Shown here piece by piece: positions 3,428 to 11,825 of a stretch of 36,571 nt of DNA. Each line of letters opens with the position of its first letter. The stretch's first letter is position 1. The notes beneath the pieces are model-generated. The model did no database searches. It was not told the DNA's origin and was given only the letters and a program-made list of their open reading frames with translations. Both the position numbers and the translations under genes were made by a program. The stretch covers positions 1-36,571 of the forward strand of contig JAAZAA010000178.1 in the NCBI GenBank assembly GCA_012514535.1, in the 5' to 3' direction. Source of the stretch: Myxococcales bacterium. Its GTDB lineage: Bacteria > Myxococcota_A > Polyangia > Polyangiales > Polyangiaceae.

Positions 3428-3898
3428 TCAGTCGTAGTCGACGGCGCTCACTTCGTAATGGCGCACGCCAGCGGGCAGCTGGACCTGCACCTCGTCGCCC
3501 ACCGACTTGCCGATCAGGGCTCGCGCGAGGGGGGCGGAGATGGAGATCCTGCCCTGATCGATGTCCGCCTCGTCGGCGCCCACGATCTGGTAACGGACCT
3601 CCTCGTCCGTGTCGAGGTTCAGGAGGGACACCGTGGCGCCGAAGCGGACCTTGTCGCCGCTCAGCTTGCTCGGGTCGATGATCTCCGCGCGGGCGAGCTT
3701 GTCCTCCAGGTCCTTGATGCGGGCCTCGACCATGCCCTGCCGCTCCTTCGCGGCGTGGTACTCGGCGTTCTCACTGAGATCGCCGTGCTCGCGGGCGATG
3801 CCGATCTCGCGGGAGATCTTCGGTCGTTCCTCCTTGAGGCGGCTGAGCTCTTCGCGCATCAGCTGCGCCCCGCGGGGCGTCATCGGGACTTTTTCCAT
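3428..3898 (-). CDS. greA: Transcription elongation factor GreA
   Basis: A 156-aa protein, matching the usual GreA length of about 158. GreA binds in the RNA polymerase secondary channel and stimulates transcript cleavage in backtracked complexes. The N-terminal antiparallel coiled coil (about 1-75) carries the tip motif [15 protein letters not shown], with the acidic tip residues D40 and E43. The C-terminal FKBP-like domain contains [15 protein letters not shown] and ends in the typical beta strands. The start is ATG at 3898 because [12 protein letters not shown] aligns with the known GreA N-terminus; the frame stays open upstream but that part has no GreA similarity. It precedes the sulfatase-fold gene by 3 nt and is divergent from bamD. 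Confidence 0.97.
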
Positions 3899-5379: not shown

Positions 5380-5405
5380 GCGCCTTGGAATACAGCGCCT
5401 TGGAA
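5380..5405 (+). repeat. Direct repeat carrying two candidate TTG starts
   Basis: The 11-bp sequence GCGCCTTGGAA occurs at 5380-5390 and again at 5395-5405. Each copy contains an in-frame TTG (5385 and 5400), so the response regulator has two equivalent candidate start codons 15 nt apart. Neither has a clear Shine-Dalgarno. Confidence 0.7.
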
Positions 5406-6866
5406 AACGCGTCCTCCGCTCCTCGCCCGCCGAGCTCTCCCGATCCCCTCGAAGCCCTCGCGCCGACGGTCCTGGTCGTCGACGACGAGCGCAACATTCG
5501 GCGCACCCTCGAGCTGGTGCTCACGGGCGAGGGATACCGGGTGCTGGAGGCCGGCTCCGCCGAGGACGCGTTCCGGCTGCTCTCGGAGACGGAGCCCGGG
5601 GTCGATCTCATCCTCTTCGACCTCAAGCTGCCGGGCATGAGCGGGCTCGAGGCCCTCGAGAAGCTGCGCCTGGACGAGGCCACCCGGGACGTCCCCGTGG
5701 TGGTGATCAGCGGCCACGCCACGGTCCACGACGCCGTCGCGGCCATCAAGCTCGGGGCGAGCGATTTCTTCGAGAAGCCCCTGAACCGCGAGCGCGTGCT
5801 CGTCAGCGTGAGCAACTGCATCCGCACGGCGCGGCTGTCGCGGCGCGTGGAGCAGCTGCGGGCGGAGGTCGAGGCGCGCTACGAGATGATCGGCACCAGC
5901 GCGCCGATGCAGAAGTTGTACGCGGCCATCGACAAGGTCGCGCCCACCAAGGCCAACGTCCTCATCACCGGGCCCAGCGGCACGGGCAAGGAGCTGGTGA
6001 GTCGGGCCATCCACCGCCTGAGCCCTCGCTGCGAGGCGCCCTTCGTGAAGGTGAACTGCGCGGCCATCCCCCGGGAGCTCATCGAGAGCGAGCTGTTCGG
6101 CCACGAGAAGGGCTCCTTCACCGGAGCGCAAGCGCGCAAGCGCGGCTTCTTCGAGCAGGCCCACGGGGGCACGTTGTTCCTGGACGAGATCGGCGACATG
6201 GATCTCGCCGCCCAGGCGAAGGTGCTGCGCGTGCTGCAGAACGGCGAGCTGGTGCGCGTGGGGTCCGAGCGCGCGGTGCACGTCGACGTGCGGGTGCTCG
6301 CGGCCACCAACAAGGATCTGGATCGGGCGGTGCAGGAGGGGGCCTTCCGGGAAGACCTGTTCTTCCGGCTCAACGTGTTCCCCCTCCAGGTGCCGGAGCT
6401 GCGGGCGCGGGGCGAGGACATCCGGCTGCTGTCGGACGCCTTCGTGCAGCAGTTCTGCAGGGAGAACGGCCTGCGCTCGAAGGTCATCCGCCCGGACGTG
6501 TACGAGGCCCTGGAGCGACGGCGCTGGCCCGGCAACGTGCGGGAGCTCAAGAACGTCGTGGAGCGGGCGGCCATCCTCAGCGGTGAGGAGATCACCGTCG
6601 CCGATCTGCCGGAGGACCCCCACTCGAGCCCCTTCGACGAGGAGGTGGAGGAGCCCACGACGGCGACGTCCCTGCCGCCGAGCGGCGCCGAGGGCGAGCG
6701 CCCGACCCTCCGCAAGTACCGGGAGATGGCCGAGCGCGGCTACATCCTCGAGACCCTGCGGGAGTTCGACTGGAACATCACACGCGCCGCCGTCGTCCTC
6801 GGCATCGAGCGCACCAACCTCCACAAGAAGATCCGCGGCTACAAGATCCAGCGGGGGGAGCAGTGA
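5385..6866 (+). CDS. Sigma-54-dependent response regulator, NtrC/NtrX type
   Basis: The product is 493 aa with three domains. The receiver domain (about 28-145) has acidic pocket D33/D34, phospho-acceptor D79 in LFDLKLPGMSG, S109 and K131. The AAA+ sigma-54 interaction domain (about 168-405) has Walker A GPSGTGKE (195-202), the sigma-54 contact loop GSFTGA (243-248) and Walker B LFLDEI (264-269). A Fis-type helix-turn-helix lies at the C-terminus (NITRAAVVLGIERTNLHKK), resembling NtrX more than NtrC. The contact loop reads GSFTGA rather than the commonest GAFTGA. Start is TTG 5385 or TTG 5400. No partner histidine kinase is adjacent. It follows bamD by 47 bp and may be cotranscribed with it. 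The signal and regulon cannot be told from the sequence. Confidence 0.93.
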   Translation: MEYSALENASSAPRPPSSPDPLEALAPTVLVVDDERNIRRTLELVLTGEGYRVLEAGSAEDAFRLLSETEPGVDLILFDLKLPGMSGLEALEKLRLDEATRDVPVVVISGHATVHDAVAAIKLGASDFFEKPLNRERVLVSVSNCIRTARLSRRVEQLRAEVEARYEMIGTSAPMQKLYAAIDKVAPTKANVLITGPSGTGKELVSRAIHRLSPRCEAPFVKVNCAAIPRELIESELFGHEKGSFTGAQARKRGFFEQAHGGTLFLDEIGDMDLAAQAKVLRVLQNGELVRVGSERAVHVDVRVLAATNKDLDRAVQEGAFREDLFFRLNVFPLQVPELRARGEDIRLLSDAFVQQFCRENGLRSKVIRPDVYEALERRRWPGNVRELKNVVERAAILSGEEITVADLPEDPHSSPFDEEVEEPTTATSLPPSGAEGERPTLRKYREMAERGYILETLREFDWNITRAAVVLGIERTNLHKKIRGYKIQRGEQ

Positions 6867-6948: not shown

Positions 6949-7992
6949 ATGACCGAGGCCTCGCCGGGCGCTCGCCCCGTGGGGGGCTGCCCTGCCGAGG
7001 GCCGGGCTCGGGGGGAACAGGCTTCGGGGAAACGGGCTTCCGGGAAATGGGCCGCTCTGCGCGACGTCGCCGATCGGATGACGTACCGCCGCGGAGGTCT
7101 GATCGGAGCGCCCGATCCGGCGCCGATCCACGTGCCCGGGCGCACGCCGACGGTCCTCGCGATCCACGGCTTCTGCGGCGTCCCCCGCGAAGTGGCCGTG
7201 GTCTGCAGCGCGGCGGCCTCCCGGGGCTTGGCCGCCCACGCGCCGCTGCTCGCGGGGCACGGGACGTCTCCGGCGGATCTCGCGCCGCTGCGCTTCGACG
7301 ACTGGGTGGCGAGCGTGGAGCCGCTCTTCGAGGAGCTGACGGCGCGGGGGCCCGTCGTGCTGGCGGGGCTCTCCCTGGGGAGCCTCGTCGCCATCGAGCT
7401 TCTGTTGCGCCACCTTCGGCGGGGGAATGGCGCCGCCAGTGAAGAAGACGCGAGCGGCGCCTCGACAGGAAACGGCGCTGCCCGGGGCGCGAAGGGCGGC
7501 GCCGTGCTCGACGGTACTGGTTCCGACGGTACTGGGTCCGAGACGGGCGCGGCGGGGCGCGTGGTCGGGCTCGTGCTCCTCGGCAACGCCCTGTGGCTCG
7601 CCCGGCCCTTTCCGGGCCTGGTGCTCAGCCTGGTGGATGCCCTGAAGCTCCCGGATTTCGGATTTCCCAAATTCGGGACGGATCTCGGCGATCCGGAGAC
7701 CCGGCGCGATCACACCACCTACCCGAGCCAACCCGTCGGGGGCGCCATCGACGTGCAGAGAGCCGGGAAGCGCCTGCGCGCCGAGCTCCACCGCGTCACC
7801 TGCCCCACCCTCGTGCTCCACGGCGCCTTGGATCGGACCTGCCCCGTCTCCAACGCCTGGCGCGTCGCGGAGCGGCTGGGGACCACGGACGTGCAGGTGC
7901 GCGTCCTGCCTCGCTCCCGCCACGTGCTCACCCGGGACGTGGAGCGGGACCAGGTCCGGGCCGCCGTCGCGGAGTTTCTGGCGCGATACTGA
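6949..7992 (+). CDS. Alpha/beta-hydrolase (esterase/lipase-like)
   Basis: The product is 347 aa. It has the oxyanion-hole segment AIHGFCGVPRE (71-81), nucleophile S142 in GLSLGS, acid D295 in HGALDRTCP and H325 in RSRHVLTRD. This is the fold of carboxylesterases such as Est30 and of monoacylglycerol lipases. Between strand beta-5 and the cap there is a Gly/Ala/Ser/Thr insertion (about 158-203) encoded partly by a 15-bp micro-repeat (DGTGSDGTGS), absent from typical relatives; it is probably a flexible loop. The N-terminal 43 residues are low complexity (repeated ASGK), and ATG 7078 (M44) is a good alternative start. It is the last gene of a plus-strand run, convergent with the dUTPase gene. 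Substrate unknown. Confidence 0.85.
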   Translation: MTEASPGARPVGGCPAEGRARGEQASGKRASGKWAALRDVADRMTYRRGGLIGAPDPAPIHVPGRTPTVLAIHGFCGVPREVAVVCSAAASRGLAAHAPLLAGHGTSPADLAPLRFDDWVASVEPLFEELTARGPVVLAGLSLGSLVAIELLLRHLRRGNGAASEEDASGASTGNGAARGAKGGAVLDGTGSDGTGSETGAAGRVVGLVLLGNALWLARPFPGLVLSLVDALKLPDFGFPKFGTDLGDPETRRDHTTYPSQPVGGAIDVQRAGKRLRAELHRVTCPTLVLHGALDRTCPVSNAWRVAERLGTTDVQVRVLPRSRHVLTRDVERDQVRAAVAEFLARY

Positions 7993-8079: not shown

Positions 8080-9180
8080 TCAGCTGCCCGTCGAGCCGAA
8101 CCCCCCGCTGCCGCGGTGGCTCGATCCGCTCGCCTCGATCCGCTCGAGGCCCAGGTGCACGATGGGCCGAGGCACCATCTGCACGACCCGCGCCGGGAGC
8201 TCCAGGTCGGGGGCCTCCGGATCCACCTTGATGAGGGGCACGAGGATCTCGCCGCGGTAGCCGCGGTCGATCACGCCCACGTTGTTCGCCAGCAGGTATC
8301 CGCTCTTGATGATCGAGCTGCGCGGCACCACGTCGAGGTACCAGCCGTAGGGCGGCTCGATCACGAGCCCCGTACCGTAGAGGACGCAGGCGCCGACCCG
8401 CTTTTTCTCGTAGAGGAGGGTCAGGTCGTAGCCCGAGTCCGTGATGCGCTGCTTGAAGGGCGGGCGAGCGTCGGGGTGGACCGCGGTCCAGCGGATGGGC
8501 CCGGCGACGTGGGGACCCGCCTGGAAGGGAGGCACCCGCTGCGCCCACGCGAGATACCGGGCGAAGGGTTTCGCGCGGCAGGGCGCCGTGGCGTCCGGTG
8601 CGCTGGTGCCCGGCGCGCTGGTGCCCGGCGTGGCGGAGCCGGTCGCGGAGCCGGTCGCCGCCGCACAGGGTTCGTAGAGGTGCCCCAGCAGATCGAGGGC
8701 GTTGTGCCCGCTCCAGTGGAGCCAGCGTTTGCCCACGCGGTCCGGGCCGAGGGCGAGGAACTCGAGCAGCCCCTCGAGCAGACGAGCTCCGGGCCGCTGC
8801 AGGCGGACGCGCAGCACCGGGCGTCGCGGCGAGCTCACGTGCCCGCTGGCGTCGAAGAGCCCCCGAACGAAGGCCCAGCCGAGCTCCCGCCGCAAGGTGG
8901 GGAACTCCAGGCGCCCCGTGTCCCCCGGCGCGGCCGCGAGCCAACCGGCGGCGAGGGCGCTGGCGGGTGCAGCGACGTACACCCTGCCCCGGCGCAGCTC
9001 GTAGGCCAGGGGCTCCTGGGCGCTGCGGGGCCGGAGCAGATCGAGGAGGGGCGCGTCGTCCTCCTCCAGGCGCACCTCCAGGGTCCCCTGCCGATCGCGC
9101 CCGGCCGCCGCCACCACGCCCAGGGCGTAGGCGTGCACGGGCTCACTCATGTCGCCGAACAGCCGCTCTCCTGCCGTCAT
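8080..9180 (-). CDS. dUTPase fused to a degenerate LAGLIDADG-like domain
   Basis: The product is 366 aa. The C-terminal part (about 226-366) is a trimeric-type dUTPase, which hydrolyses dUTP to dUMP and PPi. All five motifs are visible: TDSGYDL (247-253), PRSSI (286-290), GVIDRGYRGE (302-311, catalytic Asp), RVVQMVP (331-337) and the closing RGSGGFGSTG (356-365). The sequence around PRSSIIKSGYLLANNVG resembles phage and large-virus dUTPases. Residues 1-172 look like a two-repeat LAGLIDADG domain: YALGVVAAAG (18-27) and FVRGLFDASG (104-113), with WSGHNALDLLGHLY typical of that fold. The acidic residue before the last Gly is Ala in the first motif and Ser in the second, so nuclease activity is unlikely. 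A repetitive Gly/Ser/Ala/Thr linker (about 172-200) joins the halves. ATG 9180 has AAGGAG 4 nt upstream. It lies 20 nt after the ATPase-TPR gene. Confidence 0.88.
   Translation of the reverse strand: MTAGERLFGDMSEPVHAYALGVVAAAGRDRQGTLEVRLEEDDAPLLDLLRPRSAQEPLAYELRRGRVYVAAPASALAAGWLAAAPGDTGRLEFPTLRRELGWAFVRGLFDASGHVSSPRRPVLRVRLQRPGARLLEGLLEFLALGPDRVGKRWLHWSGHNALDLLGHLYEPCAAATGSATGSATPGTSAPGTSAPDATAPCRAKPFARYLAWAQRVPPFQAGPHVAGPIRWTAVHPDARPPFKQRITDSGYDLTLLYEKKRVGACVLYGTGLVIEPPYGWYLDVVPRSSIIKSGYLLANNVGVIDRGYRGEILVPLIKVDPEAPDLELPARVVQMVPRPIVHLGLERIEASGSSHRGSGGFGSTGS
8600..8653. repeat. In-frame micro-repeats encoding the dUTPase linker
   Basis: Two 15-bp copies of GCGCTGGTGCCCGGC (8600-8614, 8615-8629) are followed by two 12-bp copies (8630-8641, 8642-8653) of a G(T)GGCGGAGCCG-like unit. 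On the coding minus strand they give GSATGSAT and PGTSAPGTSA. Both unit lengths are multiples of three, so copy-number change would keep the frame. Confidence 0.8.
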
Positions 9181-9200: not shown

Positions 9201-11825
9201 TCAGGACATGGCCGCCGGGATGCGATGCCGCTCGAAGATCTCCGCCGCCATCGAGCGGAGCTTCGCGGCTTCCCGCTGGATGTCCGGGTTCGTCTGGTAG
9301 ATCGCCGAGGCGGTGACGTACTTCGAGAAGGCGAGGTAGCTGCGGGCGACCTCGATCTCGTTGCCGATCTCCTTACCGACGGCGATGGAGCGCATGAAGT
9401 ACTCCACGGCCCGCGTCTCGTGTTTGCCGCCCCAGGCGCCGGCGCCCGTGATCTCGCCGAGGGTACGGAGGGCGATCGCGAGGTGCGCCTTGCTGCGCAC
9501 CTGTCCGAACAGATCCACCGCCTCCTTGATGTGGGAGCGGGCGCGCTTCAGATCGCCCCGCAGCAGGTAGGACTTGGCCAGGCCGCGCTTCGCCTCCGCG
9601 AGCTGGAGCTTGTCGCCGAGCTCGCTGCTCAAGGCCACCGCCTGCTCCAACATCTGGATGGCCTCGTCCCCCTGCCCGAGGCGCTGCAGGGTCTCTCCGA
9701 TGTTGGTGAGCCCCGCGGCGATGCGGGTGCGCTCGCCGATCTCCACGGCGACCTGGTGGGACTCCCGGAAGTACGCGAGGGCCTGCTCGAACTGGTTCTG
9801 GTCGATGGACAGCTCGCCCAGCGTGTTCAGGCTCTCGGAGATGCCCACGGGATCGCCGATCTCGCGGCGGATCTGGAGGGACGCCTCCAGGGCCTCCTTG
9901 GCGTTCGTGGGGCGCCCGTGGTCGGCCCACACCAGGCCGATGTTGTTGAGGCTGAGGGCGATGGAGCGTCGGTCCCCGAGCTCCTTACGCATGTCGAGGG
10001 CGATGCGCAGCTCCTTCAAGGCCGCGTCGTAGTCGCCGCGCACCCACAGCAGCCGCCCGATGTCGTCGCGACTCGCGGCGACGCCGCGCTGGTCCTGGAC
10101 CCGCTCGAACAGCTCGAGACCCGCCTCCAGGTGCTGCTGCGCCTCGTCGAGGAACCCCGTCTCCCGATAGAGCCGCCCGATGCGGTTGTGGGCGGCGCCC
10201 CCCTTGCCCTGCAGGTTGAGGCGATAGGCGATGCCGAGCATCTGCCGGAACGCCTCCAGCGCCTCGTCGGTCTTGCCGAGCAGACAGAGCACGTCCCCGT
10301 GGTTGTGCAGGGCGTCGATGCGGCGCCGCGCGTCGTCGTCGCCGAGCAGGGTGAGCCCCTTGGTGTAGTACTCGTGGGCCTTGCGCGTGGCGAAGCTCTT
10401 GCGGGCGATGTCCGCGGCGTCCAGGAACGTGAACGCCGAGCGCGTCAGCGATCCGGCGCGCTCCAGGTGCTGGGCGAGCATCGCCACGTACTCCTCCTGG
10501 GAGCGGGCGCCCGTCTTCTGGGCGAGCCAGTCGGCGATGGTCTGGTGGTAGCGCCGCTTCGCCGCGGCGCTCGTGAGCGCGGAGATCTTCTCACGCTCGA
10601 AGTTGTGCTTGAACGAGTACTCCTTCTCGTCGGAGAAGACCGCGTCCTCGAGCTCGACCAGGTAGTCCCGCTCCACGAGCTGCCGGAGCACCTCCCGCAG
10701 CCGGGTCAGGTCCACCTCGTGATCCTTCGACCAGAGCTCGGGCAGCTCGCGATCCATGCGGTTCAGGGCGACGAGCCCCCCGAGCCAGAACACGCTGCCC
10801 ATCGCCGCGGCGTGCTCGAGCACCCGGCGCTCCTGAGGGTTCAGCGCCGAGATCCGGATGGCGACCGCGTCCTCCACGGACATCGGCAGCCGCACCGTGT
10901 TCAGCCGGTCCAGGTTGACCCGCCAGCCCCCCGACTCGGCCACCTCCTCCAGCACCCCCGCGTCGTGGTAGGCGCGCACCATCTGCGCCAGCTGTCCCGG
11001 GTTGCCCGCAGCAGCCCGCACCCCCGCGTCCACGAGGGCCTCCGGCACGCCCCCTTCGCAGCGCCGCAGCAGGTGGCGGATCATTTCGCTGGCGGTCGTC
11101 GGTGGCAGCGGACCGAGCTCGATCACCGTGTGACGGTCGCCCCCCAGGGTCGCCCAGTCTTCCTGGGAGCTCAGCAGCTCCCGGCCCGCGGCGCACACCA
11201 CCAGGAGCGGGCCGTTCAGCTGGGCGACCAGGGCCCCCAGCAGATCGAGGGAGTCGCCATCGGCGAACTGCAGGTCGTCGAAGACGAGCACGACCGGGTG
11301 CCGCGCCGCGTCGGCCTCGAGGAAGCGCCGCACCAGGGCGCGGCGCAGGGCCCGCACCTGGCCGGGATCCTCCGTCGCGGCCTCCGTGAGCGGGCTCTCG
11401 GGGAACGCGAGACCCACCAGCTGGCCCAGGAAGAAGCAGACGTCCCCCACCTTGCGATCGCCGAGGACCTCGGCCACCTCGGCGCTCAGCCGCTCCCGGG
11501 CCTGCTCGGGGTCGAGATCCTCGGTGAGGCCGAAGCGGGTCTTCAGCAGGCTGCTGAACACGCCGTAGCTCAGCCCCTGACGGCGCGCGTGGGCGACGTA
11601 CACCCGAGGGCCCCCCTCTTCGGGGCGTGGGAGCTCCACCAGGAGCTCGTGGATGAGGCGGCTCTTGCCCGAGCCGTTGGCCCCAATCAGGGTGACCGCA
11701 CGCACGCTCCGGGTGGAGGCAGTCTGGCGATAAGCCTCGCGCAGGTGCTCCAGCTGAGCGTCGCGCCCGATCAGGCGGGCGCCCAGGTTACCTGGCGGGA
11801 GCAAGCCGGAATCCGTGTCTCCCAT
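9201..11825 (-). CDS. AAA ATPase with TPR repeats (signalling-type NTPase)
   Basis: From ATG 11825 the product is 874 aa. An AAA_16/STAND-like ATPase domain (about 15-330) has the entry motif LIGRDAQLEHL, Walker A GANGSGKS (48-55) and Walker B VVLVFDD (178-184). A helical middle region (about 330-470) follows. The C-terminal half (about 480-850) holds ten or so tandem TPR units, for example LALSLNNIGLVWADHGRP-like repeats with ALEAFRQML and AQQHLEAGLEL helices. Such proteins act as nucleotide-driven signalling scaffolds or transcriptional co-regulators in myxobacteria and actinobacteria; here there is no kinase or DNA-binding domain in the chain. The frame stays open to 12089, across the accD start, so ATG 11825 is chosen; GTG 11852 is an alternative and no strong Shine-Dalgarno supports either. 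It is upstream of the dUTPase fusion in a likely operon. Confidence 0.85.
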   Translation of the reverse strand: MGDTDSGLLPPGNLGARLIGRDAQLEHLREAYRQTASTRSVRAVTLIGANGSGKSRLIHELLVELPRPEEGGPRVYVAHARRQGLSYGVFSSLLKTRFGLTEDLDPEQARERLSAEVAEVLGDRKVGDVCFFLGQLVGLAFPESPLTEAATEDPGQVRALRRALVRRFLEADAARHPVVLVFDDLQFADGDSLDLLGALVAQLNGPLLVVCAAGRELLSSQEDWATLGGDRHTVIELGPLPPTTASEMIRHLLRRCEGGVPEALVDAGVRAAAGNPGQLAQMVRAYHDAGVLEEVAESGGWRVNLDRLNTVRLPMSVEDAVAIRISALNPQERRVLEHAAAMGSVFWLGGLVALNRMDRELPELWSKDHEVDLTRLREVLRQLVERDYLVELEDAVFSDEKEYSFKHNFEREKISALTSAAAKRRYHQTIADWLAQKTGARSQEEYVAMLAQHLERAGSLTRSAFTFLDAADIARKSFATRKAHEYYTKGLTLLGDDDARRRIDALHNHGDVLCLLGKTDEALEAFRQMLGIAYRLNLQGKGGAAHNRIGRLYRETGFLDEAQQHLEAGLELFERVQDQRGVAASRDDIGRLLWVRGDYDAALKELRIALDMRKELGDRRSIALSLNNIGLVWADHGRPTNAKEALEASLQIRREIGDPVGISESLNTLGELSIDQNQFEQALAYFRESHQVAVEIGERTRIAAGLTNIGETLQRLGQGDEAIQMLEQAVALSSELGDKLQLAEAKRGLAKSYLLRGDLKRARSHIKEAVDLFGQVRSKAHLAIALRTLGEITGAGAWGGKHETRAVEYFMRSIAVGKEIGNEIEVARSYLAFSKYVTASAIYQTNPDIQREAAKLRSMAAEIFERHRIPAAMS

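Follow-up and report, generated by a model that had tools for sequence, protein, structure and literature searches.

The gene at positions 8080–9180 (minus strand) of the window, i.e., the whole analysed stretch of 36,571 nucleotides, encodes a LAGLIDADG-dUTPase fusion protein of 366 aa. The window belongs to the genome of a Myxococcales bacterium (G000), which groups with Polyangiaceae genomes. It is likely that this protein is the dUTPase of the cell, that the enzyme makes up the C-terminal half of what was once a mobile gene of phages, and that this gene has since been disarmed. Fold, motifs, distribution, states of the catalytic acids, synteny, sole-dUTPase status and constraint were computed; the evidence is considered below.

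The reading frame begins with ATG, immediately 5' of which lies AAGGAG. Its codon-position GC (0.82/0.53/0.90 in the N-terminal domain, 0.68/0.47/0.95 in the dUTPase half) is that of a coding gene of the source genome. Three parts are encoded in succession on the minus strand: a LAGLIDADG domain, dead by sequence (residues 1–174, positions 8659–9180), a linker that is variable in the family alignment A1 (residues 175–224, positions 8509–8658) and a dUTPase domain of 142 residues (residues 225–366, positions 8083–8508). The first half of the linker is of low complexity (GSATGSATPGTSAPGTSAP), and residues 185–195 have a pLDDT below 50 in the model. Positions 8590–8658 contain short near-repeats found only in the copy of the source species.

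The window sequence alone is no proof of a LAGLIDADG domain, since its only match, to Pfam LAGLIDADG_3, is weak (E 0.11) and lies below the cut-off. The identity is certain from the relatives, the family profile and the predicted fold. LAGLIDADG_3 is matched by 19 of the 26 aligned homologues (best E 2.2e-13), and the family profile matches the archaeal homing endonuclease I-Tsp061I (2dch; 1.8e-11). Because a structure search with the full model lists only dUTPases, that domain filling the list, the N-terminal domain was modelled separately (pLDDT 88.3, pTM 0.84). The model has the LAGLIDADG fold with both motif helices (residues 14–26 and 98–112) and matches I-DmoI (Z 13.7, rmsd 3.3, 151 residues), WhiA (Z 13.1; Foldseek 2.0e-5) and 2dch (Foldseek 1.8e-5). 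The two-motif fold, which the earlier note had read from the letters of this part of the protein, is borne out by profile and prediction alike. A chance match of the motifs, with the N-terminal half being a GC-rich domain unrelated to LAGLIDADG, could appeal to the below-cut-off E value of the protein taken alone; it is practically out of the question given the homologues with intact motifs, the profile match to 2dch and the fold matches.

LAGLIDADG domains of the same fold are frequent in inteins and group I introns, and the domain could therefore be regarded as a remnant of an endonuclease formerly spliced out of the dUTPase. This origin is highly improbable. An intein has splicing blocks and flanking exteins; here the domain is N-terminal to a complete enzyme, no extein precedes it and no splicing domain is present. 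Motifs 1–5 of the dUTPase are all downstream of the endonuclease in every fusion, and no Hint domain was found by Pfam across 26 family members.

Motif 1 (AYALGVVAAAG, residues 17–27, positions 9100–9132, minus strand) and motif 2 (FVRGLFDASG, residues 104–113, positions 8842–8871, minus strand) lie where the earlier note had placed them. The acid before the last Gly is absent from both, its positions being occupied by A26 and S112, so the replacements by Ala and Ser were also correctly read. The segment WSGHNALDLLGHLY, likewise placed as claimed (residues 156–169, positions 8674–8715, minus strand), forms the final strand and helix of the domain (strand 153–157 and helix 158–173 in the model), and its residues W156, A161, L162, D163 and Y169 are invariant in alignment A1.

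The dUTPase half is recognized above the cut-off by Pfam (PF00692, E 1.7e-10) and by NCBIfam (dut, 1.5e-23). Its five motifs, at residues 248, 286, 302, 331 and 356, include the catalytic Asp and Tyr of motif 3 (GVIDRGYRGE, positions 8248–8277, minus strand) and the Gly-rich motif 5, and the full model matches solved dUTPases with Z 14.8. A complete five-motif enzyme at the C-terminus, as had been proposed, is confirmed by both family matches and the motif positions, and dUTPase activity is predicted for it. The fusion is the only recognisable dUTPase of the source genome. An extra PF00692 match in this genome (C30:5095), considered as a second dUTPase, was rejected, being a dCTP deaminase by sequence; the extra match in G041 is also a dCTP deaminase by sequence. 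The fusion accounts for the single PF00692 match in each of G001, G072, G090 and the Microscilla genome. The related genomes G004, G005, G050 and G099 possess one ordinary dUTPase each.

Relatives of the fusion were recovered by an alignment-based scan of genome contigs; a scan of genome contigs with the single protein had found none. The search for the same domain order, suggested in the earlier note, located it in five other Polyangiaceae (G001, G041, G072, G090 and G002, whose copy is interrupted by the contig end), in one Microscilla genome (L034) and in about 20 IMG/VR phage contigs. The fusion is rare in bacteria: it occurs only in G000 and G072 among the 379 Myxococcota genomes sampled, and in one of the 395 genomes from the phylum of Microscilla. 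The contigs were assigned to phages by IMG/VR and by replication-gene neighbours; the genes near the phage fusions include DnaB helicase, clamp loader and ribonucleotide reductase. No full fusion was found in named phage or plasmid records. Phage fusions often carry an extra N-terminal cysteine-rich segment and a linker of the GRNNPN type. The open-licence PMC literature searched yielded no description of the layout, in line with the earlier note, which knew of no such protein, and within the searchable literature the dUTPase form of such an element in phages or bacteria appears undescribed.

The state of the catalytic acids differs between phages and bacteria. Both are D/D in 18 of 18 complete non-degenerate phage rows and in L101 (19 phage copies), a count from which three decayed copies were left out: L045, which lacks motif 1 and half of the LAGLIDADG domain and keeps the dUTPase, L061, where the second acid is lost, and L110, where both motifs are lost and the dUTPase is kept. 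Both acids are retained in one of the seven bacterial copies (G072, D/D), the remaining states being A/S (the window), G/A, A/S, N/Y, gap/R and A/A. The dead versions include those of the source genome, G090 and Microscilla, and at least two changes between the live and dead states are needed on the tree. Since the acids are intact in the non-degenerate phage copies and in only one of seven bacterial ones, phages are the probable birthplace of the fusion, its endonuclease then being active, and inactivation probably followed in bacteria on two or more occasions. Homing endonucleases pass through a life cycle of invasion, fixation and decay, and the live and decayed copies look like this cycle at its different stages.

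The dUTPase tree unites all fusions in one clade (SH-aLRT 97), which is separate from the ordinary myxobacterial dUTPases, and the bacterial fusions are placed among those of phages. The full-length tree contains a supported clade of the window protein with L036, L032 and L035 (99/97) and a G072–G090 pair (85/99), with Microscilla separate. Inner forks are weak in both trees, and descent of every bacterial copy from one source is neither shown nor rejected (p-AU 0.31). The N-terminus of the G072 protein, the copy with live motifs, contains SGRNNP, a remnant of the phage linker SGRNNPNxxY. Because the bacterial fusions lie among the phage ones and G072 has this linker remnant, transfer from phage to bacterium is the best-supported direction. 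The mobile-element origin and the phage-like character of the dUTPase half, suspected in the earlier note, are supported. Two Myxococcota proteins (L087 and L088, from G298 and G333) are plain dUTPases without LAGLIDADG that branch near the phage fusion clade and not with the ordinary myxobacterial enzymes.

The chromosomal position of the gene is also informative. In G099, an ordinary dut lies between genes for an NtrC-like regulator and a Ser/Thr kinase. In G090 (examined by tblastn) and G072 these two genes flank the fusion instead, and its orientation in G090 is that of dut in G099. In the window, this marker of the ancestral dut locus is present as an NtrC-like sigma-54 response regulator (positions 5385–6866, plus strand); its gene is also near the fusion in G041. 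Immediately upstream of the fusion, on the same strand and after a gap of 20 bp, an AAA/TPR protein is encoded (positions 9201–11825, minus strand), a neighbour conserved in G001 and G041 as a part of the accD-folC-AAA/TPR block that the three loci share. A GreA-like transcription elongation factor (positions 3428–3883, minus strand) is a further member of the conserved locus, shared, like the NtrC-like gene, with G041. The convergent neighbour, an alpha/beta hydrolase whose family was named from its sequence (positions 7078–7992, plus strand), is common to G041 too. Since the flanking genes match the ordinary-dut locus of G099, the fusion replaced dut at its own chromosomal locus.

The earlier note had supposed that an endonuclease domain was joined to a nucleotide-pool enzyme and kept in a non-cutting form. 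This order of events is not upheld: probably the endonuclease was still intact when the fusion formed in phages, and bacteria acquired the finished fusion in exchange for the ordinary dut, with the acids being lost later.

Traces consistent with homing are found in phage loci. In contig L058, a plain dUTPase gene ends with ...SRSGLAAEFDIEKGAG, exactly where its intact phage relatives go on with VID of motif 3, i.e., at codons equivalent to those at positions 8248–8277 of the window, and the endonuclease-dUTPase reading frame starts where this truncated resident dut stops. Motif 3 is seen as the insertion site in this one contig. The fusion in L038 is directly preceded by the relic of a plain dUTPase, which is decayed rather than cut at motif 3. 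Resident-gene fragments thus stand beside the fusion in two of more than 20 phage loci (L058 truncated, L038 decayed), and none of the other phage fusions, whose upstream regions were scanned, has a dut fragment directly before it. A complete plain dut in L112, and another in L134, is directly followed by a free-standing endonuclease from the family of the fused one.

Several viral contigs contain related arrangements. The LAGLIDADG endonuclease gene beside dut in L134 (viral contig 3300031965_000002, L134:4495-6687) is interrupted by a TnpB-like gene, a mobile gene within a mobile gene. A second, divergent plain dUTPase-like gene (L039:1135-1581) is situated about 2.5 kb upstream of a live fusion. 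Directly upstream of the decayed LAGLIDADG-dUTPase of L110, a ribonucleotide reductase frame of 1633 aa (L110:807-5708) has three apparent inteins, as judged by eye. In L059 (L059:5617-6555), a dUTPase is fused to an endonuclease VII/HNH-like type (PHROGs). The endonuclease of L059 being of a different type, endonuclease-dUTPase fusions apparently have more than one origin. Four contigs (L136:3491-4987, L137:3323-5044, L140:3515-5005 and L141:3308-5074) contain ThyX (Thy1) genes into which LAGLIDADG_3 is inserted in frame. The insertion comes right after the catalytic RHRxxSxxQESTRYV, with an apparent small HTH ahead of it and no room for an intein splicing domain. These ThyX proteins represent a second thymidylate-pathway enzyme with an unspliced homing endonuclease.

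The constraint on the dead domain bears on its present role. Fourfold-degenerate sites between the bacterial copies are near the random expectation, i.e., near saturation, and the identity of the N-terminal domain between these copies is 25–39%, against 6–9% for random sequences. Its rate relative to the dUTPase has a median ratio of 2.8 in bacteria versus 1.7 in phages. Since identity is kept despite nearly saturated silent sites and the domain nevertheless evolves faster than in phages, the dead domain, as far as sequence comparison tells, is relaxed but not free and still under purifying selection. Part of this constraint may predate the loss of the acids, from a time when the ancestor was perhaps still active. 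A structural or vestigial role fits the constraint as well as the DNA or nucleotide sensing proposed in the earlier note.

It is quite possible that the domain is a functionless vestige, kept through its fusion upstream of an essential enzyme, with deletion still to come. The acids disappeared in two or more lineages and gave way to different residues, the relative rate of the domain is relaxed, and decayed or partly deleted versions exist in phages (L045, L061 and L110), all of which agree with a vestige. The persistence of the reading frame, the fold and the 25–39% identity despite near-saturated silent sites argues against it, as does the still high confidence of the domain model. Recruitment of the domain as a WhiA-like non-cutting DNA-binding module, e.g., for autoregulation of the operon or placement of the dUTPase at the chromosome, is rather unlikely. 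Purifying selection after near-saturation of silent sites, a fold kept in six diverged bacterial copies and WhiA among the nearest solved folds could be explained by such recruitment. However, no HTH family match by Pfam indicates an added DNA-binding motif like that of WhiA, the domain is faster relative to the dUTPase in bacteria than in phages, and phage L045 keeps its dUTPase without half of the domain. Fused domains of phages and of bacteria both have a net charge close to zero, below that of three free-standing relatives, which gives no indication of strong DNA binding. Net charge was rejected as a test of lost DNA binding, being uninformative since phage and bacterial fused domains overlap.

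The former phage mobile gene, the reading preferred here, could have acted as follows. In phages, a LAGLIDADG homing endonuclease fused in frame ahead of the dUTPase, often behind a cysteine-rich N-terminal segment, would cut dut genes lacking the element, and repair would copy endonuclease and dUTPase into the recipient, replacing the enzyme of the latter. The cut would fall at the codons of motif 3; the element would supply its own dUTPase front, and the enzyme would be rebuilt as a fusion. The fusion gene would then have been inserted into Polyangiaceae chromosomes where the resident dut lay, becoming the sole dUTPase, after which the endonuclease would have lost its catalytic acids (A26 and S112 here, other residues elsewhere). 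The present protein is predicted to function as a normal dUTPase, each subunit carrying an inert LAGLIDADG domain; this domain could persist because it aids folding or stability, or perhaps because it binds DNA without cutting. As a whole, the proposal that phages carry a splicing-free homing element cutting dut at motif 3 and rebuilding it as an in-frame fusion, a prokaryotic counterpart of the WHO elements discussed below, copies of which jumped to bacterial chromosomes, took over the locus of the native dut and became domesticated through loss of the acids, is put forward tentatively, as a plausible account.

The evidence suggests that a mobile gene took over an essential housekeeping job. 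This would be a route by which a selfish endonuclease is fused to an essential enzyme, inserted at the locus of that enzyme and then disarmed. If insertion at motif 3 is general, phages have a means of lodging a homing endonuclease in an essential gene that needs neither intron nor intein. Since live (phage, G072) and dead (source genome, G090, Microscilla) versions exist, homing, displacement and domestication are directly testable.

Among known systems, WhiA (DUF199) is a bacterial LAGLIDADG protein without nuclease function that regulates transcription and has a C-terminal HTH. The window protein resembles it in carrying a LAGLIDADG domain without nuclease function, and WhiA is among the nearest solved folds; unlike WhiA, it ends in a dUTPase, has no HTH match and has live relatives. 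With LAGLIDADG_3 endonucleases such as I-Tsp061I and I-DmoI it shares a single-chain two-motif fold with the same order of elements, but it lacks both acids and belongs to a nucleotide enzyme instead of an intron. With trimeric dUTPases (PF00692, Dut) it shares the five motifs and the fold, whereas its 224 extra N-terminal residues and its phage-associated clade set it apart.

The kind of element proposed is known in eukaryotes. In the WHO elements of yeast, part of the target gene accompanies the homing endonuclease, and every insertion makes the gene whole again without splicing (Coughlan et al. 2020, PMC7282813). The mitochondrial mORFs of Allomyces and Glomus follow the same splicing-free principle (PMC3630166). 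Elements of both types replace the 3' ends of FBA1, atp6, cox2 and other genes in fungi (PMC7282813, PMC3630166). For WHO elements cleavage was shown, remnants of the resident gene may remain, and family members have been domesticated (HO; PMC7282813). The phage fusion would be similar in that its endonuclease would move together with a copy of the gene it attacks, with neither protein nor RNA splicing. It differs in its putative target, dut, in its hosts, which are phages and bacteria, and in the position of the endonuclease ahead of a complete enzyme; cleavage, shown for WHO, is here a putative activity.
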